Below, one piece after another: positions 6,211-35,614 of a stretch of DNA of 35,679 nt. Below the pieces are notes generated by a model, which worked only from the letters and a program-made list of their open reading frames with translations, did no database searches and had not been told where the DNA came from. Position 1 is the stretch's first letter. Every line of letters begins with the position of its first letter. Location: IMG/VR virus record IMGVR_UViG_3300017991_000243, positions 1 to 35,679 of that record; one strand, given 5' to 3'. The translations under genes and the position numbers were made by a program. Source of the DNA: a virus.

Positions 6211-7149
6211 TCACTTCCCCTCGAGCTGCTGCCGCATCTCGGCGAGACACGCCGAGTGAATTTGCGAGACCCGCGATTCGCTCAGATCGAGCCCCGCCCC
6301 AATCTCCTTCATCGTGACGTCCAACCAGTAGTATTCGATCACGATCAGACGATCTCTCTTCGAGAGCCCGCGCGTCAATTCGCGGAGCGTCTCCATTTCG
6401 TCGAGCGGCGCGCGATCGTGTCGGACCGGGTCGGCCGCCGGCTCGTCGCCCCAAGGCCCGGCGTCCTCTTCGTCGCCGAAGCCGAGCCGGACCTGGTGGC
6501 GGTGACGCCAATCGGTCGCCGGCCGACCCCGTGCCTCGTCGCCATACACGGCGATCAACTCCCGCTCGATCTCCTCGGTCGACGGCCGGCGGCCCAGCCG
6601 GTGCGCGAGCTGCTCGACCAGCGCGTCCCGCCGGGTGATCCGACCGCGATGCACGCGTCGGACCGTGTCCTGCCTCCTCGCCTCGTCCGCCATCGCGCCG
6701 CATATCCGGTGCGTCGCGTAGGTCGAGAACTCGACTCCGGCGCCCGGATCGAACGTGGCGATCGCCCAGAGCAGGGCCATATGGGCGGCCGACCAGAACG
6801 CATCGAAATCGGCTCCCGGCGGCAACGTTCGGACATAACGGTGCCAGTGGTACTGCGCCAACGGGCGATAGCGAATCACCAACCGATTCCGCGCTTCCGA
6901 ATCGTCCCCCTCGGTCGCCCCGTGATAGGCACGCCACTCGGGGTCCTCGATCGTCGACGGGTCGACCCGCGACCCGCCGCGCGGCGGACGCGACCATTTC
7001 CGTGTCCTCGCGATCCGTGCCAGCCGCCGGCCGAGCCGGCCCGGCGACATCCCCAATTGCCGCGCGGCGGCCGCCTTGACCGCGCGGTGCTTGAGCATCG
7101 CCAGCACGACCAGGTCGTCCGACGGCTCCCGACCGTCCCCTGTCACCAT
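6211..7149 (-). CDS. Sigma-70 family factor of the FliA/WhiG type with extra N-terminal HTH (312 aa)
   Basis: Region 2 is clear at residues 86 to 165: RNRLVIRYRPLA, then LLWAIATFDPGAGVEFSTYA and RICGAMADEARRQD, the pattern used for -10 recognition in FliA, WhiG and SigF. A region 3 helix lies at about 176 to 203 (QLAHRLGRRPSTEEIEREL). Region 4 lies at about 250 to 308, with the -35 helix-turn-helix (TMKEIGAGLDLSESRVSQI). Residues 1 to 45 add a Fis-like helix-turn-helix (AVKAAAARQLGMSPGRL) that is not part of standard sigma factors. The factor should redirect host RNA polymerase to phage promoters. It lies 25 bp after csrA. The length is complete and no key region is missing. Confidence 0.9.
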   Translation of the reverse strand: MVTGDGREPSDDLVVLAMLKHRAVKAAAARQLGMSPGRLGRRLARIARTRKWSRPPRGGSRVDPSTIEDPEWRAYHGATEGDDSEARNRLVIRYRPLAQYHWHRYVRTLPPGADFDAFWSAAHMALLWAIATFDPGAGVEFSTYATHRICGAMADEARRQDTVRRVHRGRITRRDALVEQLAHRLGRRPSTEEIERELIAVYGDEARGRPATDWRHRHQVRLGFGDEEDAGPWGDEPAADPVRHDRAPLDEMETLRELTRGLSKRDRLIVIEYYWLDVTMKEIGAGLDLSESRVSQIHSACLAEMRQQLEGK

Positions 7150-7503: not shown

Positions 7504-9042
7504 TCACTTCGGCCGCTTGATCGTCGCCAACTCACCCGGCAATCGATCGAAGACGGCCCGTTCGCTGGAGAGCCGTTCGATCAGGTCCGCCTTCGCGGCG
7601 GACGCCTTGATTTCGAGCTCGTACTCCTCGGCGATCGCCGTCAACCGGGCCTTGTCGTGCATCGCCCAATAGGCGTCGGTCAACGGCCCGGCCTGCTCGT
7701 CGCCCCACCACGGCTCGATCGTCCGGTGATCGAGTTCCAGGAACTCCGCGATCGTCAGGACGTCATGTTCCAACGCCAACCCCGGCTCGTCGTCATTCCA
7801 AAAGATCCCCCGCAGGACGGCAATTTCCATCTCTTCGGTCATCGCCGGCGACTGCTCCGCCGTGACGATCCCGGCGACGTCAATCCCGAACCCCGGGCGT
7901 TTCTTCGCTCGCTTCCCCAGCTTCCGCCACGCAACGTCAAGCGTCCGTTCGCGGTCCAACGAATCGCCGAGCGTCACCGCCGCCCACAAGAGCAGTGCCC
8001 GCCGTTCGTCCTCGCCGCAGTGGTCGGTGTTCTCGATCGTCGCGGCGATCAGGTACCGCAACCAATTCACGTACCACGCCCACAGCTTGCCCCGAAACGC
8101 GGCCGCCCGCTCCTTCTCGATCCGCCTCGCCTCGGCCGCCGAAACCTTCTTCTTTTCTTTTGGCTTCGTCGGCGTCTTCCCTTTTTTCGATTCGCCGTTC
8201 TTGCCGAGTTGCTTGACGTGCTCGGCTTGCAACTTCTCCCAGAGTGTCACGTTCGCGGCGAACTTCTGCCCTTCGTGGTCCTCGACCACATCGAGCTTCG
8301 CCAATTGGTCGTCGTTCGGCTTGAATCGCGTGACGTGTCGGCCGAGCTCGCGGTTGTAACACTGCCCGCCGCCGATCGCTTTGCAGCTATCGCGGATCGC
8401 CCAGCCGACATCCTCGGCGAACGTCTTGACCGTCCCCAGCGTGTCCCCCGCCTTCTTTCTCAGGTCGAGTTCCTTTGCGATCTGTTTCAGGGCCGTCGGC
8501 GAGTCCTTGTATTTCGCGATCACCCGGGCATGGGTCGGCGGTATTTCTCCCGAAATGATCCGCTTGTGCCAAGCGGCCGGCAGCTCCAACAAGCGCAGCC
8601 GGTTGCTCACGTGTCCTTGCGAGCAGCCGAGCCGGCCGGCCAGTTCGGTCGGCCCGGCCGCGTCCCCTTCGTCAATCATGGTCCGCATCGAGCGGGCCTC
8701 GTCGATCGGATTCAGCGCCTTCCGTTGCGACTGCGAATCGAAGATCATCAACCGGACGGTCGCATCGTCCGCCTCGTGGACCTCGGCCCGGATCGCCGGC
8801 CAGCCGGCCACCTTCGCCGCCCGCAGCCGCCGCTCGCCCTCGATCAGTTCGTACCGCTTCCCCTTGCGTCGAACCACGATCGGCTGGATTTGCCCGGCCG
8901 CCGTCATCGACTCGGCCAAGCCGTCGATCTCCTCCTTCGGGAACTCGGTCCTCGGCTGGAACGGGCTCGGGTCGATCACCCCGAGCCCAATCGCCTCAAG
9001 CGCAACGGCCGTCACCGTCGTCTTCCTGCCCTTCACCATCAC
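7504..9042 (-). CDS. ParB/Spo0J-like partition or nuclease-domain protein (512 aa)
   Basis: Residues 21 to 105 form the ParB N-terminal domain: PSPFQPR, QPIVVRR and the GERRLRAA box (69 to 76), which in ParB binds CTP. Residues about 131 to 150 are the central helix-turn-helix (TELAGRLGCSQGHVSNRL). A long Lys-rich linker follows (about 285 to 310), and the remaining 200 residues are not familiar. The protein is larger than chromosomal ParB (about 300 aa). No ParA partner is present in the window, so partition of a plasmid-like prophage, or a ParB-type role in phage DNA transactions or regulation, are both possible. The start at 9042 has AGGAGGA just upstream. Confidence 0.8.
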   Translation of the reverse strand: MMVKGRKTTVTAVALEAIGLGVIDPSPFQPRTEFPKEEIDGLAESMTAAGQIQPIVVRRKGKRYELIEGERRLRAAKVAGWPAIRAEVHEADDATVRLMIFDSQSQRKALNPIDEARSMRTMIDEGDAAGPTELAGRLGCSQGHVSNRLRLLELPAAWHKRIISGEIPPTHARVIAKYKDSPTALKQIAKELDLRKKAGDTLGTVKTFAEDVGWAIRDSCKAIGGGQCYNRELGRHVTRFKPNDDQLAKLDVVEDHEGQKFAANVTLWEKLQAEHVKQLGKNGESKKGKTPTKPKEKKKVSAAEARRIEKERAAAFRGKLWAWYVNWLRYLIAATIENTDHCGEDERRALLLWAAVTLGDSLDRERTLDVAWRKLGKRAKKRPGFGIDVAGIVTAEQSPAMTEEMEIAVLRGIFWNDDEPGLALEHDVLTIAEFLELDHRTIEPWWGDEQAGPLTDAYWAMHDKARLTAIAEEYELEIKASAAKADLIERLSSERAVFDRLPGELATIKRPK

Positions 9043-9055
9043 TTCCTCCTGTTGG

Positions 9056-9125
9056 TTAGCGTTTCCACGCCATGGCTAGCAATACGGTTCACTCGCCATG
9101 GCTATCCTGGTTCCCTTGTTGCTCC
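9056..9125 (-). repeat. Leader repeat copy 1, in front of the parB-like gene
   Basis: This is the partner of the csrA leader repeat. The segment also contains the last codons of the Tad2-like gene, whose C-terminus (QGN, HGE) is echoed, as an untranslated or alternative frame, in the csrA copy. GCCATGGC occurs twice within it, so the transcript could fold into a hairpin in front of the parB ribosome site. Confidence 0.65.
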
Positions 9126-9427
9126 GGGGTTGGCCCCTCGGACACCCGCCAATCAAAGGCGAGCAGATCACCCGGCAGTGGTCGCCAGCCGACCTCCAGG
9201 TAGCCGCCGGGCAGCAGCATGCAGAAATGCGGACAGCTCACGAACTCAGTCACGCCGATCCGGCCCAAGGGGCCCTCCACGTGGTCTATGGTTCGCCCTT
9301 CGCGAAGGAACACGAGCCGCCGGCGGCTCCAGCACTCGCGTTCGACGCACAGCCCTTCTTGCATCTTCTCCTTGGCCCAACCGAAATCATGCAGCCGGCT
9401 GTCCGGCTTGCCCAGGTTCTCACTCAT
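9089..9427 (-). CDS. Tad2-like (DUF2829) putative anti-Thoeris protein (112 aa)
   Basis: The layout matches the DUF2829/Tad2 family. It begins with FGWAKEKMQEGLCVERECW (compare the family's F-x-A-x-K-x-G-x-x-V-x-R-x-x-W), then a hydrophobic strand. The C-terminal block is PHFCMLLPGG and WRPLPGDLLAFDW (Trp81, motif 87 to 93), where the family has a W-x-x-x-x-x-D-x-L-x-x-D-W signature. Known Tad2 proteins form tetramers that sequester the cyclic ADP-ribose-type signal made by Thoeris TIR proteins, so this gene would protect the phage from TIR-based abortive defence. AAGGAG lies upstream of the ATG at 9427. The match is from memory of the family, so it is likely but not proven. A housekeeping DUF2829 role remains possible. 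Confidence 0.65.
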   Translation of the reverse strand: MSENLGKPDSRLHDFGWAKEKMQEGLCVERECWSRRRLVFLREGRTIDHVEGPLGRIGVTEFVSCPHFCMLLPGGYLEVGWRPLPGDLLAFDWRVSEGPTPEQQGNQDSHGE

Positions 9428-9485: not shown

Positions 9486-11114
9486 TCACTCCCGTTGCCG
9501 GACCCGGCCGTTCTTGCACCATGCGACGCCGCACCGGCCGGCCAGTGCGGCCGCCTTCGCGTTGAAGAACCCCGGCGGATCGCGGAGCTTGCCTGTTCGG
9601 TGCATCGCGATGACGTCGCCGAGTACTTCGCGGAGCTTTTCCTCCTCCAGCCCGTGGTAGACGACCAGGTCGGCCGCCTTGCCGGCGATCGCTTCGCTGA
9701 GCGGTTTGCCGTTGGGGCTCGGCCCGGCCCTCGCGACCGTCGCGAGGATCTCTTGTCTCAGCCTGAGCTTTTGAGCCGCCGGCGTGGTCCGCTGGCCGAC
9801 CTGGTCGAGCGCCTCGGTCAAGGCCGGGACCAGCGGCGCCGACACCAGCGGCGAGGGACCGGCGACGGGGCCCGGCTGCACGGCCCGCGATCCGCATCCC
9901 TCGTCCGCCGGCTCGGCGGGGCCCCCCGGTCCCGCGATCGCCGCCTGACTCTCGGCCCCCCGCCCCTCTTCAAGAACTACCCTTGAGGTGTCCACTTTGG
10001 TAGCTTTGGTTCTTTGAAGGCTTTGGTACTTTGGTAAATTAGATTCTTGTTCTTGGTCCAAAGCGCGCGCGGCCGCGCCCACGCACGCGAGAGTAGGTGT
10101 GTCTTGCGGTCCGAGTGCCGCGTAGACCCGCCGAAACGACCTCGATCCGGCCAGCGGATGACCGACCGGCGGGCGGTTTTGCGCAAAATCACCCGTGACC
10201 TCTTCGACCGGCGGGCGGTTTTGTGCAAAACCACCCGTGACCTCTTCGACTGGCGGGCGGTTTTGTGCAAAACCACCCGTGACCTCTTCGACTGGCGGGC
10301 GGTTTTGTGCAAAACCACCCGTGACCTCTTCGACTGGCGGGCGGTCTTGCGCAAGACCGCCCGCGATGTGATTGGAAACGTCGCCGAGGGGAAGGCGTTG
10401 CTGTCGTTCGTCGTCCGGCTTGCGATCTTGGGGACACGGCAACCCAAGATCGAATCGGTAGTCGCCGTGATGCTCGATGATGTCGATCAGCGAGGTGCCC
10501 CTGAGGCGAGCCATTGTGGTGCGAGCGGTCTTGGGGTCGATCCGGCAAGCGGCGGTGATTGCCGCCGACGTGACGCGATAGATTCCGGGCGTCGCCCCGG
10601 CGCGTCGCCACAAGAGGAGCCAGACGATCTTGTCGTTCGGGCTCAGGTCGCGATTGTGCCACACCGTTCGGACCTCGATCGAGAGGCCGAGCGTATCGTC
10701 CGATCCGCCCGGCGCAACGGGACGCGGGGCCGCCCCGTCGATGTGCTCCGGCAGGCCGCACTGGAGTGCCAGGCGTTGCTGTCGGCCATCGTCGGGTTCG
10801 CGTCCTTGGCGGCACGGCCGCCAGAGGGCCACCTGGTAGTCGTCGCGCGGCGATGACACGGAATCGTCGTCGCCATCCAGTCTGCTCAGCAGTCCGGCGA
10901 GACAGAGCCGAGCCATCGCCGCGTGGACGGTCCTCTGGTCGATCCCGCACGCACCGTCAATGGTCGCCGCCTTGACGCGATGGGTCCCTGGCGCTCGGTG
11001 ACCTCGCCACCAAAGGAAGAACCAGACGACCTTGTCATTGGGGCGCAGGTCTTTGCGACCCAAGACGATTCGCTCCTCCATGGAGAAGCCGTCGGTCAAC
11101 TCGATATCCAGCAT
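9486..11114 (-). CDS. Replication initiator-like protein with two winged-helix domains and an internal origin (542 aa)
   Basis: Two related DNA-binding domains lie in tandem: residues about 24 to 100 (NDKVVWFFLWW, then AATIDGACGIDQRTVHAAMARL) and about 158 to 225 (NDKIVWLLLWRR, then SAAITAACRIDPKTARTTMARL). They look like an internal duplication of a winged-helix replication-protein domain. Residues 253 to 317 are five 14-residue repeats (GGFAQNRPPVEEVT) encoded by 42-bp DNA iterons. A low-complexity linker follows, then a helical C-terminal domain (about 420 to 542). The start at 11114 has AAGGAT upstream; the frame is open to 11198. Domain order and the iterons inside the gene resemble lambda O. 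The protein would bind the iterons and load a host helicase. No helicase motifs are seen. Confidence 0.7.
   Translation of the reverse strand: MLDIELTDGFSMEERIVLGRKDLRPNDKVVWFFLWWRGHRAPGTHRVKAATIDGACGIDQRTVHAAMARLCLAGLLSRLDGDDDSVSSPRDDYQVALWRPCRQGREPDDGRQQRLALQCGLPEHIDGAAPRPVAPGGSDDTLGLSIEVRTVWHNRDLSPNDKIVWLLLWRRAGATPGIYRVTSAAITAACRIDPKTARTTMARLRGTSLIDIIEHHGDYRFDLGLPCPQDRKPDDERQQRLPLGDVSNHIAGGLAQDRPPVEEVTGGFAQNRPPVEEVTGGFAQNRPPVEEVTGGFAQNRPPVEEVTGDFAQNRPPVGHPLAGSRSFRRVYAALGPQDTPTLACVGAAARALDQEQESNLPKYQSLQRTKATKVDTSRVVLEEGRGAESQAAIAGPGGPAEPADEGCGSRAVQPGPVAGPSPLVSAPLVPALTEALDQVGQRTTPAAQKLRLRQEILATVARAGPSPNGKPLSEAIAGKAADLVVYHGLEEEKLREVLGDVIAMHRTGKLRDPPGFFNAKAAALAGRCGVAWCKNGRVRQRE
9985..10062. 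other. AT-rich tract beside the iterons, candidate DNA unwinding element
   Basis: GC content falls to about 39 percent over 9991 to 10060, counted by eye, against well over 60 percent around it. The tract contains four CTTTGGT-type repeats (near 9994, 10004, 10021 and 10029). It lies about 105 bp from the nearest iteron and inside the initiator gene, as the AT-rich half of the lambda origin does in gene O. Confidence 0.55.
10168..10371. repeat. Five 42-bp iterons with dyad symmetry, candidate replication origin
   Basis: Copies start at 10168, 10210, 10252, 10294 and 10336, each exactly 42 bp apart. The core of each is an inverted repeat, GGCGGTTTTG then CAAAACCACC in the middle copies. The fifth copy is a perfect 28-bp palindrome (10337 to 10364; half site GCGGGCGGTCTTGC). 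The unit is a multiple of three and encodes a 14-residue repeat in the initiator. Exact spacing, dyads and position inside the initiator gene are what iterons look like. A purely protein-level repeat is the alternative. Confidence 0.7.
10423..10452. repeat. Perfect 10-bp inverted repeat next to the iterons
   Basis: CGATCTTGGG and CCCAAGATCG are separated by 10 bp, about 50 bp beyond the last iteron and still inside the initiator gene. It may be an extra initiator or repressor site or a transcript hairpin that limits initiator synthesis. Confidence 0.45.
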
Positions 11115-11226
11115 GGTACCATCCTTGGCCCGTCTCGTCCGTCTCGGACGTGACGGTAGCGTCTTCAGCGTCCTGTCTTCACGGTTCCGAAAGCGCAATA
11201 CACGCCACGGACCAACAGAACGCGTT

Positions 11227-12182: not shown

Positions 12183-12467
12183 TCACGCTATTCGGTCATT
12201 GAGTGTCACGGCCCGCCCACCCAGGCCGGCCGCGCGGGGCAACGTCACGCGGCCGGCCTCCTCTTGCTTGGCGTGTCCATGCTCGGGGTTCCTTCGCAAG
12301 TACCCGCGCGCCTCGGCGATCACTCGCGGATCGACGACCGGCCGCAACGGCGGCGCGCCGTCGTCCAACCAGCACTTCCGGGCGCACCACTGATCGGCCC
12401 ATGGGTAGAGCAGGTTTCGGTGCGTCAAGAACCGCCGGCCGCAACGGCGGCACGTAGTGCGTCGCAT
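12183..12467 (-). CDS. Zinc-finger hypothetical protein (94 aa)
   Basis: GGAGG precedes the ATG at 12467. The N-terminus holds a CxxC pair (CRRC at 6 to 9) and a second pair after a loop (WCARKC, about 27 to 32), forming a four-Cys zinc site. The next part (DPRVIAEARGYLRRNPEHGH) is helical, and the tail is Gly/Arg-rich. The upstream open frame is only the translated repeat cluster and is not part of the gene. The first gene after the integrase, it may be a DNA-binding excision or control factor, but nothing shows this. Confidence 0.6.
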   Translation of the reverse strand: MRRTTCRRCGRRFLTHRNLLYPWADQWCARKCWLDDGAPPLRPVVDPRVIAEARGYLRRNPEHGHAKQEEAGRVTLPRAAGLGGRAVTLNDRIA

Positions 12468-12489
12468 TGTCGTTCCCTCCGTCGCGTCG

Positions 12490-12737
12490 ACCCAGTTCCC
12501 GCCGTGGCGCGGCAGCGCTAACCCCCAGAAGCGCACTTCGCGGAGTTGACCCTGCTGGCCGACTCCGCCCCCGCCATGGCGCGGCAACGCCAACCCCCAC
12601 AAGCGCACTGGGCAAAGTCCGCCCTTTCCCTCGACGTCGCCCTTGCGATGGCGCGGCAACGCTAACCCCCAGAAGCGCACTTCGCGGAGTTGACCCTGCT
12701 GGCCGACTCCGCCCCCGCCATGGCGCGGCAGCGCTAA
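12490..12737. repeat. Repeat cluster between integrase and the next gene
   Basis: Four copies of the dispersed element (plus strand GCCATGGCGCGGCAACGCTAA-like) lie at about 12500, 12577, 12646 and 12718. A 70-bp segment at 12517 to 12586 is repeated without a mismatch at 12661 to 12730. The cluster starts directly at the integrase stop codon. It holds no plausible gene although one frame stays open through it. Confidence 0.8.
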
Positions 12738-13850
12738 TCAAAACAGGAGGAGTTGGCGGTCGGTGGGGAGGGTGGTGTTGGGTTGGGGGAGTGTTTCGAG
12801 GACGGCGGTGGCGACGCTCCCGGCGACGTAGTTTTTCCGCGTCACTTCGGAGCCGACGTGCCCGAGTTGGTTGGTGGCGACCATCGGGTTGACTCGCGCC
12901 AGTTCGGTCGCCAGTCGTCGGCGGAACGAGTGGAACCCGAGTTGTTTCTGTCGTGCCGGCGGGATCTCGGTCTGTGCGAGGATATCGCGCCGAACCTTTT
13001 GCAGGTCGGACAGGGTATAGACCATCTTCTTGGCGCGCAACGGCCAGGGGAAGATTCGTCGGTCGGCCGTCCGGACCCCGAGCAGGGCGTCCCGGGCCGC
13101 CTGGTTGACCCGGATCCGCTTCGCGTTGTTGCCCTTGACGATCTCCGCCGGGATATGGAGGACGTCGTCTTGGAGCATCGACCATTCCAGCAGGATGGTC
13201 GTCTCGATCCGCGTCCCGACATTCGCCAAGAAGAGCGACAACGCGCGCCAGAATCGCCAGGGCGTCAGTCCCGGGATGCGGGGCCGTCGCGCGTGTCGCG
13301 CGGCGGCGAGGAACTGTTCGAGCTCCTCGAGCGTGATCCCCTCGATCGGCTCCTCCTCGCGCTTCGGCGGACGCTCGAGGTAGGGCGGGTCGATCAGCAG
13401 CCCCTTGCCCTGGCGGTTGGTGCGCGTCTTCGGTCCGGCCAGGTCGAGGAGCCGTTGCAGGTGCGTGCAATGTTTCCGGACCGTGTTCGGCGAGACGTTC
13501 CGTGCCGGGTCGCGTCCCGGCAGCCGCGACACCTTGCGGACGAACTCGGCGCAGACATACTCGTCGATCGCCTCCAGCGGCGGATTGCCGGTGAACCGCT
13601 CCCAGTAGCGGAGCGATTGGGCGTAGGCGTCGAGGTTCCTCGGTCGCGCGTTGCGCGCCGCCAGAATGACCGGCCGGACATACCGATCGTAGAACTCGCG
13701 TAGCGTCATCGCCGGCGACAAGCGATGCTCGTCGCCCGGCGCGCTTTCCGGTGGCGGATCGGGCCACTCCACCTCGGGCGACCAGATCCGCAAGGTCGGG
13801 GCGCACGCCGAGCCGGGCGCCGAGCCGGGCGCATCGTCGGAGAAGGACAT
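12738..13850 (-). CDS. int: Tyrosine recombinase / phage integrase (370 aa)
   Basis: The catalytic domain shows the full residue set. The first Arg lies in VGTRIETTILLEW, and the beta-hairpin Lys in IPAEIVKGNNAKRIRV. HSFRRRLATEL gives His-x-x-Arg, LGH gives the second His, and RKNYVAG gives the nucleophilic Tyr near the C-terminus. The N-terminal part (about residues 45 to 150) is a SAM-like core-binding domain. The protein should catalyse site-specific integration and excision of the element. AGGAG lies upstream of the ATG. A TATAGT -10-like hexamer lies at 13958 to 13963, and a perfect 28-bp inverted repeat covers the expected -35 region. There is no truncation or frameshift. Confidence 0.9.
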   Translation of the reverse strand: MSFSDDAPGSAPGSACAPTLRIWSPEVEWPDPPPESAPGDEHRLSPAMTLREFYDRYVRPVILAARNARPRNLDAYAQSLRYWERFTGNPPLEAIDEYVCAEFVRKVSRLPGRDPARNVSPNTVRKHCTHLQRLLDLAGPKTRTNRQGKGLLIDPPYLERPPKREEEPIEGITLEELEQFLAAARHARRPRIPGLTPWRFWRALSLFLANVGTRIETTILLEWSMLQDDVLHIPAEIVKGNNAKRIRVNQAARDALLGVRTADRRIFPWPLRAKKMVYTLSDLQKVRRDILAQTEIPPARQKQLGFHSFRRRLATELARVNPMVATNQLGHVGSEVTRKNYVAGSVATAVLETLPQPNTTLPTDRQLLLF

Positions 13851-16740: not shown

Positions 16741-17637
16741 TTACGACTTCGGGGTGTGCTTCGCCAAGGCGTCCGCGACGCGATAGCCTTTGACCGTCAC
16801 GCGAAAAAGGCTGTTACCAGAGCCCACAGGTTCCAAGAGGCCGCCTTGGACGAGATCGTCAATCGCCTCCCAATATTTAAGACCGACACGCTCTTCCGTC
16901 TGGCCCGTTACGACCTGACGATCCGTGCCAATAGTGACGGTGCGACCGAATGCCGTCGAGTTTCTGCTAACCGGGGATTCGCGCGTCGCTGCCTCCGTAA
17001 GTATTTCGCGAGCTTCCGGGGAAAGCGTCATACCGGCGAGCGGATCCTCCGCCGACCCGAGTATGATGGAGGGGGCCACGTCGCGGAGATTGAAACTCCC
17101 CTTGAACACGTTAGCAGCTTGCGTTTGCTGGCAGTTGCCAAGGACCTTGTTCAGTTCCTTCTCGATTTCGATCCAAGCGCTCTCAAAGTTGCCTTCGAGA
17201 AGTGTTTCGTCGTGCGGCGTTGCCAGCGCCCTGTTCAGCGACAAGATCAACGCGAGGGTGTCGTCTTTCGTGGCCAGCGTGGCCTGCCAATGGCCCAGGG
17301 GACCGTCCTGGATCATGCCCATGCCGATGCCGACGAGGTACGGGCAAACATGCACGTCTTCCCTCTTGGTGGCGACGGCGCCCGTTTCATAGTAGATCCA
17401 CGGCGAGTGGACATTCTCGCTTGTCACGAAAATAACGCAAGAGGTCGCGTCCGCGAGGACTTCCTGCAGTTCGTCGAACCACATTTTTCCCTTGTAGATG
17501 TCCTTGCTCGAGATCCACGGCCTCAGCCCGGGCAACACCTTCGGCAGCCAGTCGCGAAAAGCGGACGCGGCCGCCTTGCTCTGCGACCCCGACCAACTCA
17601 GTAGCACATCCGTTGTATGTGATTCGCCCTCTGCCAT
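16741..17637 (-). CDS. TIR-domain protein with C-terminal winged-helix-like domain (298 aa)
   Basis: Residues 8 to 135 form a TIR domain: DVLLSWSGSQSKAAASAFRD, then PWISSKDIYKGKMWFDELQ, CVIFVTSENVHSPWIYYETG and the later strands. The W-x-x-x-E motif (Trp80 to Glu84), which supplies the catalytic Glu of NAD-cleaving TIRs, is intact. Residues about 205 to 293 look like a winged helix (LKYWEAIDDLVQGGLLEPVG, then LFRVTVKGYRVADAL). The protein probably hydrolyses or cyclises NAD when triggered, as in Thoeris and other TIR defences. No ThsA-like partner lies nearby. A purine-rich site (GGGGGGGA) precedes the ATG. The structured triple repeat starts 12 bp upstream of the ATG. Confidence 0.85.
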   Translation of the reverse strand: MAEGESHTTDVLLSWSGSQSKAAASAFRDWLPKVLPGLRPWISSKDIYKGKMWFDELQEVLADATSCVIFVTSENVHSPWIYYETGAVATKREDVHVCPYLVGIGMGMIQDGPLGHWQATLATKDDTLALILSLNRALATPHDETLLEGNFESAWIEIEKELNKVLGNCQQTQAANVFKGSFNLRDVAPSIILGSAEDPLAGMTLSPEAREILTEAATRESPVSRNSTAFGRTVTIGTDRQVVTGQTEERVGLKYWEAIDDLVQGGLLEPVGSGNSLFRVTVKGYRVADALAKHTPKS

Positions 17638-17648
17638 ACATCCCCCCC

Positions 17649-18190
17649 GCCCCTCGATCCTTACGAAAAAGCGGCGGTAGGGGAGGTGTGTATCAGGCCT
17701 GCATAACCGTGGGCCGCGCGCCCGAGGGCGTTCCGTTAAAGAAGCGACCGCTTAGTTTGACCTCTTCGAGCCTCGCGACCCGAAGCACCTCCCGGACCGC
17801 CGGGAGCCTCGATGTTTTTCCTTCGCCCTTGCCCCTCGATCCCTCTTGAAAAAAGCGGCGGTAGGGGAGGTGTGTAACAGGCCTGATCGAAATGGGCCGC
17901 GCGCCCGAGGGCGTCCTGTTAGAGATGCGACCGCTTAAGTGGACCTCCTCGCGCGTCGCCACGCGAAGCACCTCCCGGACCGCCGGGAGCTCCGATGGTT
18001 TTCCTTCGCCCTCGCCCCTCGATCCTTCTTTCAACAATCCGGCGGTAGGGGAGGTGTGTCTCAGGCCTGATTCAAAGTGGGCCGCGCGCCCGAGGGCGTC
18101 CTTTTGAAGATGCGACCGCTTAAGTGGACCTCTTCGCGCGTCGCCACGCGAAGCACCTCCCGGACCGCCGGGAGTTCGCGTTGCTCGCTT
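17649..18190. repeat. Three tandem 184-bp structured repeats upstream of the TIR gene
   Basis: A shared block (CGGCGGTAGGGGAGGTGTGT) occurs at 17672, 17856 and 18040, exactly 184 bp apart. Each unit also has GGGCCGCGCGCCCGAGGGCG and a perfect 7-bp hairpin CTCCCGG-ACCG-CCGGGAG (near 17790, 17973 and 18157). A second hairpin (CTTCGCG and CGCGAAG) is intact in copy 3 and weakened by one mismatch in copies 1 and 2. Short stretches around the GC-rich block differ between copies. In copy 3 they pair with each other (TTCAAAG with CTTTTGAA), and a shorter pairing exists in copy 1 (TAAC with GTTA). The unit length is not a multiple of three and reading frames break between copies, so this is non-coding. 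Confidence 0.8.
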
Positions 18191-18194
18191 TCCG

Positions 18195-18321
18195 ACCCCG
18201 GACACGCGGATATCCTATCCGCTGTTCACCTGCCCCCTCGAAGGCGGTAAAATCTGCCCTAAGCCGAATAGAATCGGCAACAAAAGTAGCGGCGCAGGGA
18301 TTCGAACCCCGGACACGCGGA
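18195..18321. repeat. 16-bp direct repeats of tRNA sequence, 111 bp apart
   Basis: ACCCCGGACACGCGGA occurs at 18195 to 18210 and 18306 to 18321. Both are pieces of the same tRNA region (end of anticodon stem, variable loop, start of T stem, minus strand). The first copy also keeps the 5' anticodon-stem strand (CAGCGGA). This looks like remnants of recombination at a tRNA attachment site. Confidence 0.65.
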
Positions 18322-18327
18322 ATTATG
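18287..18327 (-). pseudogene. 3' half of a tRNA gene (probably CAU anticodon), attachment-site remnant
   Basis: On the minus strand CATAA, then TCCGC, GTGTC, the T arm CGGGG-TTCGAAT-CCCTG and the acceptor strand CGCCGCT plus A follow in the right order for a tRNA 3' half. The 5' half (acceptor AGCGGCG, D arm) is missing upstream. One extra T lies between anticodon loop and stem. Temperate elements that integrate into tRNA genes carry such a 3' segment, so this is a natural attP or attL/R candidate, although it is 4.4 kb from the integrase gene. Confidence 0.7.
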
Positions 18328-18623
18328 ATAGGGTCTTGACCCCTGGTGGATTATTCGGGAAGTGATGGCGGTGCCCGATCGTTATCGCCGCCGCGCTGCT
18401 GATCCTGTTGGGACTCTGGTGGGCGTTCAGCTGAAAGCTGAATAACGGGATATCCCGATACTTTTCGGGCGACGCGAAAAGAGCGAAAAGAGCGAAAAGA
18501 GCGAAAAGAGCGAAAAACGCCTAGACGTGTGGAAAAAGTGGCTCGAAATTATTTTCCGAAATCGGCCGAATTGGCCATCCGATCGCACATTTCCCAGCGG
18601 CCGAGGAGACGACGGACGAGGGA
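18328..18623. other. Non-coding boundary with 9-bp tandem repeats after the tail operon
   Basis: No gene is supported. A frame near 18390 to 18425 would encode a hydrophobic helix (PIVIAAALLILLGLWWAFS) but has a stop directly upstream and no start, so it looks like the end of a lost gene. A palindrome CGGGATATCCCG lies at 18446 to 18457. Five copies of a 9-bp unit (CGAAAAGAG) lie at 18475 to 18515 and give a T-rich run on the minus strand, where the tail operon transcript would end. Confidence 0.55.
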
Positions 18624-22601: not shown

Positions 22602-24575
22602 TTATTCCTCGAGGCGTCCCCACTGGCTAGGTTGCCATTTGTCGCGTGGGTCGGGCGTTTCGCCAGGCGACTTCTCCTGCTTCTTGACCGCGTCGGCGGT
22701 CTCCTTCGTATTCGTCGCGATTTCCCGCAACACGCCACCACTGCCGCCGAGTCCCCACAGGGCGGTGCCACCGAATGTGCCGGCCGTGCTCGCGCCCGAG
22801 CCGCCCGGTCCACCGGGGCCGGCGAACTCCAGGCCGGCACGCTCGAACGGCGATCCGGAGCCGGAGAGCTTTTTCGATCGTTCGTCGCGGGCCTTCGCCG
22901 CCTCGCGTCGGGCGTCGGTCAACTCCTTGTTGGCCGCGTCGAGCCGCTTCTGCCGCGCGCGCTCCTTCCGTGTCGCGTCGGCGTCGAGCTCCTTGATCGC
23001 GTCGGATCGGGCCGCGCCGATCGACGCGAGCCGATCGTTCTTATTCGCGTTAATGCCGGAGAGCGTGGTGGCCAAGGCGGCGTCGCGCTCCTTCTTGTCG
23101 GCGGCGAAGTTGCGTCGGTCGACCTTCAGCGATGCCTCGACCGCCTCGTCCGACAGCCCGTTGATCTTGCCCAGGATGCGCGTGAGCCCCTCGGTGATCG
23201 ACAGCTGCGCGCCCTTCCACTTGTCGGTCGCCGTGTTGCTGAACTTCGCCCAGGCGGCCGACATGCTCGAGGTGATCTCCACCCAGATGGCCTGCAATCC
23301 GTACCAGGTCTCGATGATCGGCTCGGCGAAACCACCCTGGCCCGTGTTGCCGAGGAGGCCCTTGACGAACGTGTCCCACGCCTTGCCCAACGCGCCGGTC
23401 CCCTCGTACCACGCGACCTTCAGCGCGGCCCACATGATTCGGCCGGCCAGGGCCAGGTCGCCCGCCATCAGGGCGTCGGCGATCCCTTGGAAGGTCTCCA
23501 CCGCGAACGTCTTCAGCTCGGTGAACCGTTGGCCGAGCCAGCCGAGTACTTGCTGGCCCGTGTCGGTCAAATACAAAAAGCCGGCGCCGATGCCCAACAG
23601 CGCGGCGACGACCAGGCCGGCCGGCGAGAGGATCGCGCCGAGCACGGCGGCGATAAGCCCCAAAAGCGTGGAGAGACCGGCCAGGGCCATTCCGGCCATC
23701 GTGGCGGCGATCCCGAGCGTGAACAGGACGCCGCCGGCGACGACGACGCCGGCCGCTACCGCCGCGATCGTGACGACCAGGTCCTTGTTGTCGCGGACCC
23801 AGGCGGCCGCCGCGACGATCCATCGCGTGACCACGTCGAGGCTGTCGGTCAGGGCGCCGGCCAACGAGGAGCCGACCGTGAAGACGGCGCCGCCGGCGGC
23901 CCGCTTGGCGCGGTTCCAGGCGTCGGCCAGGGCGGCCGCGTCGTCGGCTTGATCTTGCGTGATCGCCAGGCCGAGCCCCTCGGCCTCTTTTCGCATCGCG
24001 GCCATGCCGGCGGCGCCGCCCTCGATCAGGGGCAGCAACTCTTGACCGGCTCGGCCGAAGAGTTGCATGCTGAGCGCCGCGCGGCGGCCGGGGTCCTCGA
24101 CGCGACTGAGGGCCTCGACGATCGTGGTGAATTGGTCTTCGGGCGACAGGCCCTTCAGTTGATCGAGCGTGACGCCCAGATCGTCCAGTGTGTCGACGGC
24201 CGCCTTCGAGCCCCGTTCGGCGTTGAGCAGTTGCCGCTGCATCCCCTTCAGACCCTTCTCGACGGTCTCCAGGCTGGATCCCGATTGCTCGGCCGCGAAA
24301 CCGATCTCCGAGAGGAACTTGGTCGAGGCACCGGTGCGGGCGGCCATCTTGTGCAGGTCGTCGCCGGCCGCCATGAACTTGCCGACGGCCCCCAGCAAGG
24401 GCGTCAGGATCACGCCGCCGGCCGCCATGACCTTGGCGCCGCTGGCGGTGAGCGACGCGCCCCACGCCTTGAACCGACGCGAGGCCATCGCCAGGCCGCG
24501 ACGCATCTTGCTGTCGTCGGTGAACAGCTCGACAAAGGCTCGGCCGGCTCGGACGGCGGTTTGGGATGCGGACAT
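22602..24575 (-). CDS. Tail tape measure protein (657 aa)
   Basis: A long helical protein with the tape measure layout. The N-terminus (RAGRAFVELFTDDSKMRRGL and RFKAWGASLTASGAKVMAAG) is followed by a section, LHKMAARTGASTKFLSEIGF to SPEDQFTTIVEALSRV, that matches the TP901-type core. A central block of hydrophobic segments (about 255 to 345) and Lys/Arg-rich coiled coils follow. It sets tail length and is injected with DNA. At 657 residues it implies a tail of roughly 100 nm, using the usual one residue per 1.5 angstrom rule. It follows the chaperone pair by 9 bp, the standard order. Confidence 0.9.
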   Translation of the reverse strand: MSASQTAVRAGRAFVELFTDDSKMRRGLAMASRRFKAWGASLTASGAKVMAAGGVILTPLLGAVGKFMAAGDDLHKMAARTGASTKFLSEIGFAAEQSGSSLETVEKGLKGMQRQLLNAERGSKAAVDTLDDLGVTLDQLKGLSPEDQFTTIVEALSRVEDPGRRAALSMQLFGRAGQELLPLIEGGAAGMAAMRKEAEGLGLAITQDQADDAAALADAWNRAKRAAGGAVFTVGSSLAGALTDSLDVVTRWIVAAAAWVRDNKDLVVTIAAVAAGVVVAGGVLFTLGIAATMAGMALAGLSTLLGLIAAVLGAILSPAGLVVAALLGIGAGFLYLTDTGQQVLGWLGQRFTELKTFAVETFQGIADALMAGDLALAGRIMWAALKVAWYEGTGALGKAWDTFVKGLLGNTGQGGFAEPIIETWYGLQAIWVEITSSMSAAWAKFSNTATDKWKGAQLSITEGLTRILGKINGLSDEAVEASLKVDRRNFAADKKERDAALATTLSGINANKNDRLASIGAARSDAIKELDADATRKERARQKRLDAANKELTDARREAAKARDERSKKLSGSGSPFERAGLEFAGPGGPGGSGASTAGTFGGTALWGLGGSGGVLREIATNTKETADAVKKQEKSPGETPDPRDKWQPSQWGRLEE

Positions 24576-28513: not shown

Positions 28514-29428
28514 TCAGAGCGTGAGCGCCTCGGTATCGACGATCGCGTCGGTAACTTGGATCGGGACGTTTTCCACTTCGGTCGGCGTCGGCGCCGGGGC
28601 GCCGGTCGCGTTGGTGGCCGTCCGGCTCGAGCGGAGTTGTTCGAGCGAGCGGCGACTCATCAACAGCATGTCCGGCTTGATGCCGGCCGGGAACTTCGAG
28701 AACATCGAATAGATGAGGTCGTCAGTCAGGCCCTTGCCGCTGTCGGCCGTCAGCTTTTTGATCCGCCCGATGCTGTTGATGTTGGCGACCTGCAGGCCGA
28801 CGTGCGTCAGGATCTCCTGGCAGTAGGCCGTGTAGGGATTGCCGCTGCCGTCGGTGACGCGTTCCTCGGTGACGTCGCTCGGATCGAGCGTTGCGCCGTC
28901 GCCGCCCCAGACCCACTGGACGTGGGTCGGGCCGAACTTTACGGCCCAGACGCTCGATCCGGTGTTGGCGGTCGTTCCGCCGGCGTCGACGACCATGTTG
29001 GTCGCGTCGTAGGCCGCGATCAGCCCGGGGAAACCGTTCGCGTCGTTGGCCGTGCCGTAGTAGAACTGCGACGCGCAGTGCTGGAACGTCGCCTCCATTT
29101 GGCCGCCGGCCTCCAACGCAAGGACCGCCTCCGGCCCGTCCTCGCTTCCCTGGCAGACCGCCTTGTCGGCTTCCCACCGTGCGTTGAAGATGAAGCACTC
29201 GATGAGTCGGTTTTCGTAGGCCGACTTGTCGATCGTAACGCCTTCATTCGCCTTGCGAAACGCGACGGCCGGCAGGCCGGTCCGCACGAGCGTCTTGTAC
29301 TGGGTTCCCTTGATCGTCCGGGCGTGCGCGAGTCGCACCTCGGGACAAGCAAGCGTGGTCTCGTCAATCAGGCCGACCGTACCGTCGGCCGCGTTCATCT
29401 TGGCGATGTCGATGAGGGTGATGGGCAT
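28514..29428 (-). CDS. Major capsid protein (304 aa)
   Basis: AGGAGG precedes the ATG, consistent with high expression. The order protease/scaffold, this gene, cement gene identifies the capsid. The sequence has an N-terminal arm, a long mixed region (GTQYKTLVRTGLPAVAFRKA, then KSAYENRLIECFIFNARWEA), and a C-terminal part with SIGRIKKLTADSGKG and GIKPDMLLMSRRSLEQLRSS, typical of HK97-fold capsid proteins in which a helix precedes the A domain. The last residues (PIQVTDAIVDTEAL) read like the capsid C-terminal strand. No insertion or truncation is apparent. Confidence 0.85.
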   Translation of the reverse strand: MPITLIDIAKMNAADGTVGLIDETTLACPEVRLAHARTIKGTQYKTLVRTGLPAVAFRKANEGVTIDKSAYENRLIECFIFNARWEADKAVCQGSEDGPEAVLALEAGGQMEATFQHCASQFYYGTANDANGFPGLIAAYDATNMVVDAGGTTANTGSSVWAVKFGPTHVQWVWGGDGATLDPSDVTEERVTDGSGNPYTAYCQEILTHVGLQVANINSIGRIKKLTADSGKGLTDDLIYSMFSKFPAGIKPDMLLMSRRSLEQLRSSRTATNATGAPAPTPTEVENVPIQVTDAIVDTEALTL

Positions 29429-29498: not shown

Positions 29499-29975
29499 TC
29501 AGTCGGTGGCGCCCGGCATCTTGATGCTGTCGGCCAGTCGGCCGAGATTGTCGCCGACCTTGGAGGCGAATTGCGACGTGGTCGAGCTGTCGCCGTCCTG
29601 ACCGGAGCCGCCGAAACTGGCCGGCGTGTCGTCGCCCCGATCGAACGCGGCGAGCTTCTTCTCGAGGGCCGCGTGCTTGTCGGTCCACTCGGCGACCTGC
29701 TTCTCGAGGGCCTCCTTCTCGGCGCCCAACGCATCGCACTTGGCGCCGAGCTTCGTGACCTCCTCGGCCGCCGTCTTCAGGCCGGCGCCCAGCGTCTCGA
29801 CCTGTTCGGTCAGCTTCGCGTTGTCGGCGGCGATGGCGTCGAAGTGAAGCTTTTGGGCCTCGTCGAACGACTTTTCTTCCGTAAACCACGCGACGCCGTT
29901 CTCGGTGCCGAAGGCGTCGGTGAACTTTTTGAGCTCGGCGCGGGTGTCGGGTGTCTTCTTCTTATCAACGGGCAT
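29499..29975 (-). CDS. Nested scaffold protein, in-frame start inside the protease gene (158 aa)
   Basis: At codon 213 of the protease gene an ATG (29975) is preceded by GAGGAGGGCGCC, a stronger ribosome site than most genes in the window. The product (MPVDKKKTPDTRAELKKFTD onward) would be a separate helical scaffold with a long coiled coil (EQVETLGAGLKTAAEEVTKL to KHAALEKKLAAF) and a Gly/Ser-rich tail. This copies the lambda C/Nu3 arrangement, where the scaffold is made from an internal start in the same frame. Confidence 0.75.
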   Translation of the reverse strand: MPVDKKKTPDTRAELKKFTDAFGTENGVAWFTEEKSFDEAQKLHFDAIAADNAKLTEQVETLGAGLKTAAEEVTKLGAKCDALGAEKEALEKQVAEWTDKHAALEKKLAAFDRGDDTPASFGGSGQDGDSSTTSQFASKVGDNLGRLADSIKMPGATD

Positions 29976-30611
29976 GGCGCCCTCCTCTGACAGTGTGTGC
30001 GTGACAAACTCGACGGCGACCGTTTCGCCGTCGCGTGAAAAGCGTGTTTCGGTGTTGCGATCGTAGCCGTAGGGGCAGATGGCGACGCCGCGCAACGACC
30101 ACTCGCGGAAGATGTAGCAGGGGCCATCGACCGTTTGGCCGTTGACCTCGGCACTGGCGTCCTGTTCGAGGAACTCCCAGCGGATCGGGCCGCTGAAGAA
30201 GATCGAGGCCTCGTAGGGCACGCCCTGCTTGACCTTGTGAACGATCTCGGCGACACGGTCGGAATCGGCGTCGCCGAACGGAACCAGGGCACCGGTGGCC
30301 ACGAGGTTGCCCGTCGAGACGTCGAACCGATCGAGATAGCCGAGCACGTCGAAATCGTTGTGCAAGTAATCGATCGGCAGCGTCTCCTTGTGGAGTTGCA
30401 TGCCCTCGAAATCGTGGACACACCGACCATAGTAGTGATGGTCGACGATGCCGCCGCTACGGGCGACCACCCCGACGGGAATCTTTGAGTTGTCCTCTTT
30501 GCCATCGCCGTCGGCAAACTTCATCGGCCCGCCGCTGATACGCATCGCGTCGGCCGGCACGTCGTGCGGGCCGTCGGTGAGGGTGCGGGGGTCGATCGTG
30601 TCATGCGGCAT
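29499..30611 (-). CDS. Prohead protease fused in frame to scaffold (370 aa)
   Basis: Residues about 20 to 190 are an HK97/U35-type prohead protease: His84 in YLHNDFDVLGY and Ser136 in PYEASIFFSG occupy the expected catalytic positions. Residues 213 to 370 are the scaffold domain, also made alone from the nested start. The protease matures the capsid and digests the scaffold. The gene overlaps the portal stop by about ten bases and is followed 70 bp later by the capsid gene. Length is normal for a protease-scaffold fusion. Confidence 0.85.
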   Translation of the reverse strand: MPHDTIDPRTLTDGPHDVPADAMRISGGPMKFADGDGKEDNSKIPVGVVARSGGIVDHHYYGRCVHDFEGMQLHKETLPIDYLHNDFDVLGYLDRFDVSTGNLVATGALVPFGDADSDRVAEIVHKVKQGVPYEASIFFSGPIRWEFLEQDASAEVNGQTVDGPCYIFREWSLRGVAICPYGYDRNTETRFSRDGETVAVEFVTHTLSEEGAMPVDKKKTPDTRAELKKFTDAFGTENGVAWFTEEKSFDEAQKLHFDAIAADNAKLTEQVETLGAGLKTAAEEVTKLGAKCDALGAEKEALEKQVAEWTDKHAALEKKLAAFDRGDDTPASFGGSGQDGDSSTTSQFASKVGDNLGRLADSIKMPGATD

Positions 30612-32001
30612 TGGTGGCCTCCTCGGCTTCGGCGGTCGCGGCCCGCCGCTTAGCGATCCGTAGGTCTTCCGCTTCGAGCTCGTCTTGGATATCGAACCAG
30701 TCGACGCCCTTGCGTTGTTTCGTGATCCGTTGGCGGCTGGTCAGCCCCTCGGCGATCGCCTCGCGGTCGGCCTTGATCTCTTTCAGCGGGTCGACCCAGG
30801 GAACGCCGGCGGCGATCCAATCCCAGGACAGATTCGCGAGCGTCATCTTGCGGGGTAACTCGAGGTAACCGTCGAGCACGAAGAGCCCGAGCCGCCAGGC
30901 CGTGATCTCGTCGAGCAGCTCGCGGACGGCGTCGCGTTTGACGTCGGCCGACAGGTCGTACTGGATCCACGCCTGGCGTTGCCCGCTGTAATTGGTGAAT
31001 GATTCGTCGAAGAACGAATAGGGGATGTCGAGCGCCTTCAACGCGGCCGCGATCATCGCGGACGTGAATTCCTGGAACTGCGTCGAGGGCGTGGCCGACT
31101 CGATCAGGCCGGCTTCGTCGTCATGTTCGAGTTCCAACACGAACGGAGCCTTGCCCGGCGAGAACTCGAATTCGCCGGTCGGGGAACCGTCCGCGTCGGT
31201 CGTTTCCTCGGCCAACGATTCCTCGCCGTTGGCGCGCTTCACTACCAGGCCGAGCATCTGCGATATCTTGGCTTTCGCCAAGGCAAACTCCCAGGCCTCC
31301 ATGCAGTGGCGAAACGGATTGAGCGCCGGGGCCAATACGCTGATACCCCGGGTCGCGTCGAATCGGTTGCCGTAGTCGGCATGTTGCACGATGTACCGCG
31401 ACGGAATGGCCCGCTCGAACTCGAAGCCGGTGCCCCGGACGCGACGGTGGACGCAGTACCGCTTGGCCTCGCCGTGACGATCGACCACGACGCCGTGGTC
31501 GAGTTCGTGTTTCCTCGGCACGTTGAATGTCGAGGAGCCGCCGACCGGGTTGCGGACCCGATCCCCCTCGATATGGACCAGGCGGCCGTCGCGAAGCTTT
31601 TGGTGGAAGATGTCGCCGTCGAGCGTGCGGCGGGCCTCCGACATGCGGATCGACCGAGCCAATGAGTGACGTCCGGCCCGATCGCAATTCTTGGGCTTGG
31701 CGTACCATTTCATCAGTTCTTCGATACGCCGATCAAGCTTCTTGTCGCCCGTCTTCGACTGGAACGAAAACGTCGAGACGTAGTCGAGATGCTTTCGGAC
31801 GGCCCACGCGCCGATGGCAAAGTTGCGGGGCAGGTCGCGGGCCGAAGCGATCAGTTGCCGCCGCTTGTGGGCCGGGAGTTCGCGATCCTCGCTACGCAGC
31901 ACGGGCGAGACCGACGTGCGCCGAGGGGAGTCCTCGGTCGCGTCGTAGGCGAAGCAGCCGGCCACCGCCGTATTGGTGAAGGTGTGGCGAGTCACGGTCA
32001 A
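30601..32001 (-). CDS. Portal protein, lambda family (466 aa)
   Basis: The sequence follows the lambda B/portal pattern: a basic N-terminal part (SEDRELPAHKRRQLIASARD), NFAIGAWAVRKHLDYVSTFS, RRTLDGDIFHQKLRDGRLVH and later AWIQYDLSADVKRDAVRELL, then a C-terminal helix rich in Ala and Arg. It forms the dodecameric channel through which DNA enters the head. The ATG overlaps the gpW-like stop (ATGA). The stop lies inside the start region of the protease gene. Length is in the usual range of 430 to 530 residues. Confidence 0.9.
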   Translation of the reverse strand: MTVTRHTFTNTAVAGCFAYDATEDSPRRTSVSPVLRSEDRELPAHKRRQLIASARDLPRNFAIGAWAVRKHLDYVSTFSFQSKTGDKKLDRRIEELMKWYAKPKNCDRAGRHSLARSIRMSEARRTLDGDIFHQKLRDGRLVHIEGDRVRNPVGGSSTFNVPRKHELDHGVVVDRHGEAKRYCVHRRVRGTGFEFERAIPSRYIVQHADYGNRFDATRGISVLAPALNPFRHCMEAWEFALAKAKISQMLGLVVKRANGEESLAEETTDADGSPTGEFEFSPGKAPFVLELEHDDEAGLIESATPSTQFQEFTSAMIAAALKALDIPYSFFDESFTNYSGQRQAWIQYDLSADVKRDAVRELLDEITAWRLGLFVLDGYLELPRKMTLANLSWDWIAAGVPWVDPLKEIKADREAIAEGLTSRQRITKQRKGVDWFDIQDELEAEDLRIAKRRAATAEAEEATNAA

Positions 32002-34826: not shown

Positions 34827-34837
34827 GGAGTACTCCG

Positions 34838-35614
34838 TCAAGTCGCGCGGCCGACGCGGCGCGGTCGCATGCCCTGGTGACGTGCTCGATCAAGCGTCAT
34901 CGCGATGCAAGCCGGGTCGAGATCCAGCCCGACGCAGTTGCGCCCCTCGTGCTCGGCCGCGAACAGTGTGGTGCCGCTGCCGAGAAACGGATCGTAGACC
35001 GAGTCGCCGGCGTCGCCGTGATTGTGGATAGCGCGAGCCATGCACTCGACCGGCTTTTGTGTCGCGTGATCCGTGCGTGTATTGGCACCATTCGAGCGAC
35101 GATTGAGGTTATCGATAGGCCAGACGGTACGTTGCCGGCGATCGCCAGACCAGCGAGCCGTCTTGCCGTGACGAACGGCGTAGAAACACGGCTCGTGTTG
35201 CCAGTGGTAATGACCGCGACTGAAGACCGGTGACGACTTCGACCAGATGACCTGGGCACGTATGCCGAACCGGCACGCCTCCAGGGAGTCGGCCACCGTG
35301 GCCGCATGCAATCCAGAGTGCCATACGTAGGCGATGTCGCCGGGGAAGAGCTGCCAGGCCGCCAACCAGTCGGCGCGATCGTCGTGCATGACGGTGTGCT
35401 TGCGGTCGCCCTGGCCGGGACGCACCTCGGCCCGCCACGCCGGATCGTAACGCACGCCATACGGCGGATCGGTCACCATCAGCAACGGCACCCGATCGCC
35501 TAGCAGCCGACCGACGTCCTCGGCCGAAGTCGCGTCGCCACACAATACGCGATGGGTTCCGGCTCTTCCCGTAATCTCGAATAGATCTCCCAACTCAACG
35601 CGCTGATCTGCCAT
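34838..35614 (-). CDS. DNA methyltransferase, beta class (N4-cytosine or N6-adenine) (258 aa)
   Basis: The catalytic motif TDPPYG lies at 48 to 53, before the AdoMet-binding motif DPFLGSGTT (about 208 to 216). This order defines beta-class amino-methyltransferases. A short target-recognition part lies between them, and VGLDLDP closes the AdoMet pocket. There is no partner endonuclease, so it is an orphan enzyme, probably protecting phage DNA from host restriction or regulating expression. AGGAGCGGAG precedes the ATG. It is the first gene of the late transcript within the window. Confidence 0.9.
   Translation of the reverse strand: MADQRVELGDLFEITGRAGTHRVLCGDATSAEDVGRLLGDRVPLLMVTDPPYGVRYDPAWRAEVRPGQGDRKHTVMHDDRADWLAAWQLFPGDIAYVWHSGLHAATVADSLEACRFGIRAQVIWSKSSPVFSRGHYHWQHEPCFYAVRHGKTARWSGDRRQRTVWPIDNLNRRSNGANTRTDHATQKPVECMARAIHNHGDAGDSVYDPFLGSGTTLFAAEHEGRNCVGLDLDPACIAMTLDRARHQGMRPRRVGRAT

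Follow-up and report, generated by a model that had tools for sequence, protein, structure and literature searches.

The window analyzed here, the whole 35,679-bp stretch of an IMG/VR virus record (IMGVR_UViG_3300017991_000243), is a complete record of a temperate siphophage genome rather than a piece of bacterial chromosome. The genome is read on the minus strand, along which the tape measure gene is followed by tail-region genes, the region of a repeat array, a TIR-domain gene and an integrase. Its main phage features are:

34838-35614, methyltransferase
32661-34841, terminase
30601-32001, portal
29499-30611, head protease/scaffold
28514-29428, GP7-type major capsid
22602-24575, tape measure
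18285-18327, minus strand, attP core, corresponding to the 3' half (anticodon loop through acceptor end) of a tRNA-Met(CAT) gene
12738-13850, minus strand, tyrosine integrase
9486-11198, replication-initiator-like gene
9089-9427, minus strand, Tad2-like protein (Pfam PF11195, over cut-off)
7504-9042, ParB-like protein
6211-7149, minus strand, sigma-70-like factor

The 3' half of a tRNA gene is a common kind of attP core, and a blastn search with the flank matched rhizobial plasmids at their tRNA-Met gene. The site is attP and not a prophage end, because phage genes lie on both sides of it. An earlier note on this DNA had proposed planctomycete genomes as the place to search; the setting found is a temperate phage genome with its attachment site. 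A second, degenerate copy of part of the tRNA-Met core points to a past integration at this tRNA gene, or to an exchange there. Three other sets of repeats were seen in the window. Five 42-bp iterons at 10163-10372, each with the dyad CGGGCGGTTTTGTGCAAAACCACCCG (perfect at 10338-10364), lie inside the initiator-like gene and are the likely replication origin, a lambda-O-like candidate. About three 72-bp repeats at 12474-12757 overlap both a gene at 12183-12680 and the integrase gene at its 3' end, and may be a coding repeat or integrase arm sites. Finally, a perfect 9-bp repeat, GCGAAAAGA, is present 4.8 times at 18474-18516, between the tail genes and attP.

The array sits between attP and the TIR gene, ~110 bp from the attP core, in a cargo zone of low GC content (0.58 over 14-19 kb versus ~0.65 elsewhere). 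Lowered GC is typical of accessory cargo. In the order of transcription on the minus strand, this zone contains:

18192-18210, minus strand, 19-bp partial and degenerate copy of the tRNA-Met core, adjoining unit 3 and 111 bp from the attP core, start to start
18014-18174, minus strand, structured RNA unit 3, 5'-most in transcription, with no U-run after stem P1
17831-17989, minus strand, structured RNA unit 2, in which P1 is followed by GCUUUUUUC
17857-17989, minus strand, conserved core of unit 2, with the 5' hairpin, P1, P2, P3, P4, P6 and the candidate pseudoknot P5
17649-17806, minus strand, structured RNA unit 1, TIR-proximal, in which P1 is followed by GCUUUUUC and the 3' block supplies the TIR ribosome site
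17638-17662, minus strand, TIR ribosome-site region, AAGGAUCGAGGGGCGGGGGGGAUGU, which shares homology with the 3' block conserved in every repeat
16741-17637, minus strand, TIR-domain gene, 298 aa
14460-15434, plus strand, second cargo gene, convergent with the TIR gene, with weak matches to a nucleoside-deoxyribosyltransferase/TIR-effector-like domain

The TIR protein matches Pfam TIR_2 over the cut-off and PADLOC TIR-TM over residues 11-175. Its sequence carries both the TIR domain and the catalytic glutamate by which a TIR-domain defense gene is recognized; this residue, E84 in the motif WIYYETGA, is invariant in 28 aligned sequences. AlphaFold models the TIR domain confidently and the C-terminal ~120 aa with low confidence, and no recognized RNA-binding domain was found in that C-terminal region. 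The fold is matched by plant TIRs, SpbK, AbTir and the TIR domains of SPARTA. Relatives of the gene occur as cargo on phages (mEp390, P2_AC1) and plasmids, and no close relatives of either the TIR protein or the integrase were found in IMG/VR. The phage that carries this TIR cargo gene also encodes the Tad2-like domain listed above, of the anti-Thoeris sponge family (PF11195).

The array consists of three ~184-bp units that are 83-90% identical. Tandem Repeats Finder placed it at 17644-18174 (period 183, 2.9 copies, score 785), and a blastn search of the whole window with unit 2 returned the three units only, at 100, 90 and 83% identity. A 47-bp anchor block recurs at exactly 184 and 184 bp, while the spacing of other blocks varies between 182 and 185 bp because of 1-3-nt indels; the spacers between units are 24 nt. 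Three tandem units with an anchor exactly 184 bp apart, as the earlier note had described, were thus recovered by Tandem Repeats Finder, by direct repeats and by blastn alike; homology between units covers 17640-18177, slightly less than the extent claimed there (17638-18190). The note had also argued against a protein repeat from a length that is not a multiple of three. This argument holds: a protein-coding repeat is ruled out by that period together with the lack, in the open reading frame running through the units (17693-18205, minus strand), of the codon-position GC (GC3) pattern of real genes. Other known types of element were considered and dropped: there are no short repeats as in CRISPR, a hammerhead core motif was not seen by eye, and a retron would call for a reverse transcriptase, of which there is none among the window proteins scanned with Pfam. 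The evidence supports a non-coding, RNA-structured array directly upstream of the TIR gene and on the same strand.

When each unit was folded alone and in register, the same minus-strand architecture was obtained three times, with its hairpins kept in all units, as had been claimed from inspection of the copies. The fold z-scores of the three units were -3.0, -3.1 and -4.6 on the minus strand, compared with -2.1, -2.5 and -3.2 for the plus strand. Window blocks that were offset from the repeat register reached z-scores of only -0.4 to -1.3. The closing stem P1 pairs GGCGGU-CC-GGGAGGUG with CACCUCCC-CU-ACCGCC, as 6 + 8 bp flanking a 2x2 internal loop, and encloses ~100 nt. Within it lie P2 (CUUCGCGUG-GCGA-CGCGCGAAG, 9 bp with a GCGA tetraloop), P3 (AGGUC/GGCCU), P4 (GGUCGC/GCGGCC) and P6 (CGCC-CUCG-GGCG). 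A candidate pseudoknot, P5, would pair the P4 loop (UUCAAA) with a strand 3' of P4 (UUUGAA), and is convincing as a prediction in unit 3 only. It is the minus-strand equivalent of the pairing between variable arms, TTCAAAG with CTTTTGAA, that the earlier note had read in copy 3 and partly in copy 1. That pairing stands in copy 3 (6-7 bp); copies 1 and 2 allow a shifted 4-bp version only, and 65% of cells pair overall. In the predicted structure it is the weakest part.

All 38 nested pairs of the minus-strand fold hold in every copy, with none broken. Three pairs of P2 vary and all remain paired, two of them through double changes: in unit 1 a C-G pair is replaced by G-U and a G-C pair by C-G, and in unit 2 a U-A pair becomes U-G. 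With unit 3 as the source of the fold, the probability that all nine P2 pairs survive the four substitutions of unit 1 is 0.0075. When the 18 core substitutions of unit 1 were placed at random, none of 50,000 trials left every pair unbroken, and for the 8 core substitutions of unit 2 the probability of this outcome was 0.007 (0.7%). Variable columns make up 5/76 of the stem positions versus 27/85 of the unpaired ones (p=5e-5), and column shuffles matched the observed covariation in 21/500 cases, all these figures being for a structure derived from the same sequences as those tested and an alignment of three rows, all of them paralogues from one locus. The changes that arose since duplication avoid the stems or are compensated within them, which argues that selection acted after duplication. 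For this reason we consider it very improbable that the array is a decayed or selfish tandem duplication without function whose structure merely reflects a structured ancestor, even if a singleton locus in a low-GC cargo zone, with a remnant of the tRNA core nearby, is the kind of setting that such an account would suggest.

In five pairs of the minus-strand fold, one copy or more has G-U; the plus-strand equivalents are A-C mismatches, and the fold is therefore strand-specific. The P2 loop is a GNRA tetraloop on the minus strand only. The best plus-strand consensus fold had three broken pairs and lacked the compensated P2 changes, and was rejected on these two grounds. The assignment of the predicted fold to the minus strand, which is the sense strand of the TIR gene, is well supported. 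The array thus has one of the marks of a riboswitch or leader, a conserved RNA structure that precedes a gene on its sense strand, with compensatory changes on the minus strand. Of the two alternatives left by the earlier note, an RNA-based or a DNA-structured array, the first is retained and the second is disfavored, because several of the pairs are G-U, which only a minus-strand RNA can form. A protein-binding or recombination array acting as DNA beside attP, such as integrase arm sites, a partition site or an origin, would fit the distance of ~110 bp from the attP core, the ParB-like protein of the phage and the inverted repeats within the units. Duplex DNA sites, however, need neither one-strand G-U pairs nor compensatory changes, and the likely origin is the iteron array in the initiator gene. 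We regard such a DNA-level role as improbable.

Relatives of the RNA were sought in several ways. Rfam gave no gathering-level match anywhere in the window, and none over the array even at E<=5. Four different blocks of the array, used as exact motifs, were absent from IMG/VR; in GTDB contigs, exact searches with one array motif and with the tRNA-Met core returned none; and blastn of the array against phage and plasmid records matched only the tRNA-Met half. We built a covariance model on the three units and ran it against the window together with 89 other loci. These comprise the TIR relatives from phages and plasmids, 80 loci that a TIR alignment retrieved from IMG/VR, and a structural relative. 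Nearly all of these loci have related TIR genes, and only the three units of the window scored; the noise of the model is represented by one other locus (L030, E 0.18) and by the plus strand of unit 3 (E 0.25). The structural relative (55% capsid identity) has no repeat array in the 21 kb covered by the search. Upstream of 60 TIR relatives, the sequence shows no unusual degree of structure (median fold z -0.3). One of these genes, on a phage (L072), has a strong upstream signal (z -8.8), which was ruled out as the same RNA: it is a single perfect 32-bp inverted repeat with a 1-nt gap (3861-3925 of that locus), and is terminator-like.

Co-occurrence of the copies with TIR genes elsewhere had been proposed as a check, and its outcome does not support the association as a general rule: the RNA is found at 0/89 other loci, including the 80 viral loci with related TIR genes. 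The functional link with the TIR gene therefore rests on one locus. Recurrence upstream of related genes in other genomes, another mark of a leader, was not seen across the 89 loci or by exact motifs in IMG/VR and GTDB contigs. At the sensitivity available to these sequence searches, the RNA is a lineage-specific orphan. Among the titles and abstracts returned by a full-text search of open papers, none describes a TIR system with such an array.

The junction between the array and the TIR gene bears on what the RNA may do. No gene separates the two, and the conserved 3' block of the repeat, GGAUCGAGGGGC, ends 11 nt before the TIR ATG, so that the array does end beside the ribosome site of the gene, as first reported. 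The ribosome-site region AAGGAUCGAGGGGCGGGGGGGAUGU is predicted to be able to pair with the 3' strand of P1. A conserved 7-bp hairpin at the 5' end of each unit, CUCCCGG-CGGU-CCGGGAG, overlaps the 5' strand of P1 and is predicted to form at its expense; the CUCCC just 5' of P1, and outside it, is invariant, as expected if this competing hairpin matters. In unit 1, the P1 3' strand freed in this way would pair with the ribosome site of the TIR gene, AGGGGCGGGGGGG; the predicted energy of unit 1 plus this site is -85.0 kcal/mol when the site is paired and -77.2 kcal/mol when P1 forms. Unit 2 is predicted to be near balance (-77.2 kcal/mol with P1 versus -76.7 kcal/mol for the alternative), and in unit 3 P1 would be favored by >11 kcal/mol. 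A U-run follows P1 in 2/3 copies, units 1 and 2. The competing hairpin, the ribosome-site pairing and the U-runs, as predicted here, are the elements expected of an attenuator.

We tentatively favor, on this basis, a triple-tandem structured leader RNA that is co-transcribed with the downstream TIR gene and holds down its expression. Each unit would adopt one of two mutually exclusive folds. In fold A, the long closing stem P1 would surround a multi-branched domain made of P2 with its GCGA loop, P3, P4, P6 and possibly the pseudoknot. In fold B, the 5' hairpin would take the 5' strand of P1 and leave the 3' strand, CCUCCCCUACCGCC, free; in unit 1 this strand would pair with the G-rich ribosome site of the TIR gene, and fold A in unit 1 would therefore expose that site. 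In units 1 and 2, P1 and its U-run could also end transcription. We infer that a signal shifting the balance between folds, be it a small molecule, a protein, or a phage or host factor, would set TIR output, and that three copies would tighten the switch. Judging from the geometry of the att site, integration would rebuild a tRNA-Met gene on the minus strand with the array and the TIR gene ~110 bp downstream and co-oriented, so that the module could be driven by tRNA read-through, in the lysogen only.

Several observations count against this leader. An RNA homologue was found nowhere outside this locus, the covariation comes from three paralogues, and related TIR genes do without the RNA, both at the 89 other loci and in the 60 upstream regions. 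Unit 3 lacks a U-run, a terminator with a multi-branched loop of ~100 nt would be unusual, and a simple terminator scan called none. No convincing promoter was found directly upstream of the array, out-of-register blocks score poorly as noted above, and the pairing of a G-rich with a C-rich strand around the ribosome site is something that DNA of high GC content could produce trivially. A bolder reading is that a new class of ~130-nt pseudoknotted tandem RNA directly controls the TIR enzyme, acting either as an RNA antitoxin or as a riboswitch that responds to a TIR-related nucleotide, and is served by the host tRNA-Met promoter only after integration; this seems to us unlikely.

The units might instead be three paralogous small RNA genes of the phage that lie beside the TIR gene by accident. 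Each is self-contained and well folded, two end in a U-run, the structure is kept in all three copies including the two that are far from the TIR gene, and there is no association with TIR genes elsewhere. On the other hand, a scan limited to the sigma-70 type found no promoter-like sequence on the sense strand within the units, spacers of 24 nt can hardly accommodate a promoter for each unit, all units are on the TIR strand, and unit 1 merges into the TIR ribosome site; we rate independent small RNAs as unlikely too. The sigma-70-like factor of the phage, if functional, could recognize promoters that a scan of this kind would miss.

The closest working analogues of the leader that we favor are both riboswitches. 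The triple-tandem c-di-GMP riboswitch Bc3-5 of Bacillus thuringiensis has three similar complete structured RNAs in the leader of one gene (PMC4759541), and so has the array; Bc3-5 belongs to a known aptamer class with a known ligand, whereas the array has no Rfam match, precedes a phage TIR gene and is a candidate for expression control. The HMP-PP (thiS) riboswitch is a terminator-embedded, unusually small aptamer (PMC6478431). It shares with the array a conserved domain within a stem that is followed by a U-run, and a mutually exclusive alternative fold, but it controls another class of gene and is far from the ~100 nt enclosed by P1 of the array. A ligand and homologues would be needed before the array could be counted among the riboswitches.

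An RNA antitoxin is the other way in which such an RNA could restrain the TIR gene. Here the units would be released as ~130-160-nt RNAs that bind and neutralize the TIR protein, as happens in type III (ToxIN) systems or in AbiF/RCd22, and P1 with its U-run would limit read-through into the toxin gene. Type III toxin-antitoxin systems (ToxIN, CptIN, TenpIN) have tandem structured RNA repeats ahead of a toxin gene and in its orientation. The array shows this layout with respect to a potentially toxic prophage gene, and the candidate pseudoknot in unit 3 and the U-runs after P1 in units 1 and 2 would fit as well. There is also a prophage precedent: in phi027 of Clostridioides difficile, a ~130-nt leader RNA with a terminator, RCd22, both attenuates and neutralizes the toxin AbiF (PMC12373285). 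Like the array, RCd22 is a structured RNA that immediately precedes, in the same orientation, a defense-type gene of a prophage. It differs in being one RNA with two ~35-nt motifs, in serving an Abi_2 protein, AbiF, and in that its neutralizing action was shown (PMC12373285); the array is a candidate for such an action. Type III toxins, however, are endoribonucleases with repeats of ~34-40 nt, and the present gene encodes an NADase-type TIR domain behind repeats of 184 nt. With TIR_2 and TIR-fold matches in place of a ToxN/CptN/TenpN-fold endoribonuclease, type III membership fails on the toxin fold. The related TIR genes of dozens of phages lack such an RNA, so that the TIR fold does not generally need one, and the C-terminal region of the protein has no recognized RNA-binding domain. 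We consider an antitoxin, the main rival of the leader, possible but on balance unlikely. Among the roles proposed in the earlier note (trigger, antidote or expression control), expression control and antidote are the two leading readings, within the limits of a link to the TIR gene that is seen at one locus only.

Stand-alone TIR genes, in the same size class, are also carried as accessory cargo by mEp390 and P2_AC1 and, as SpbK, by ICEBs1. Over the domain, the P2_AC1 protein shares 35% identity with the TIR protein described here, and SpbK is a fold match. The C-terminal regions differ, and the covariance search found no structured array at the mEp390 and P2_AC1 loci.

To our knowledge, how stand-alone phage TIR genes are kept from killing their own host is a largely open question. 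The RNA described here was previously undescribed and matches no Rfam family; its structure is well supported, and we infer its function. It is most likely, as we read the predicted folds and with no relatives found as proof, a switch that keeps a potentially toxic TIR gene under control. If this is true, the question of how phage TIR genes are restrained would have a direct and testable answer in a structured RNA, whether leader or antidote, and TIR enzymes would join the short list of defense genes, with ToxIN and AbiF, that are controlled by an adjacent RNA.
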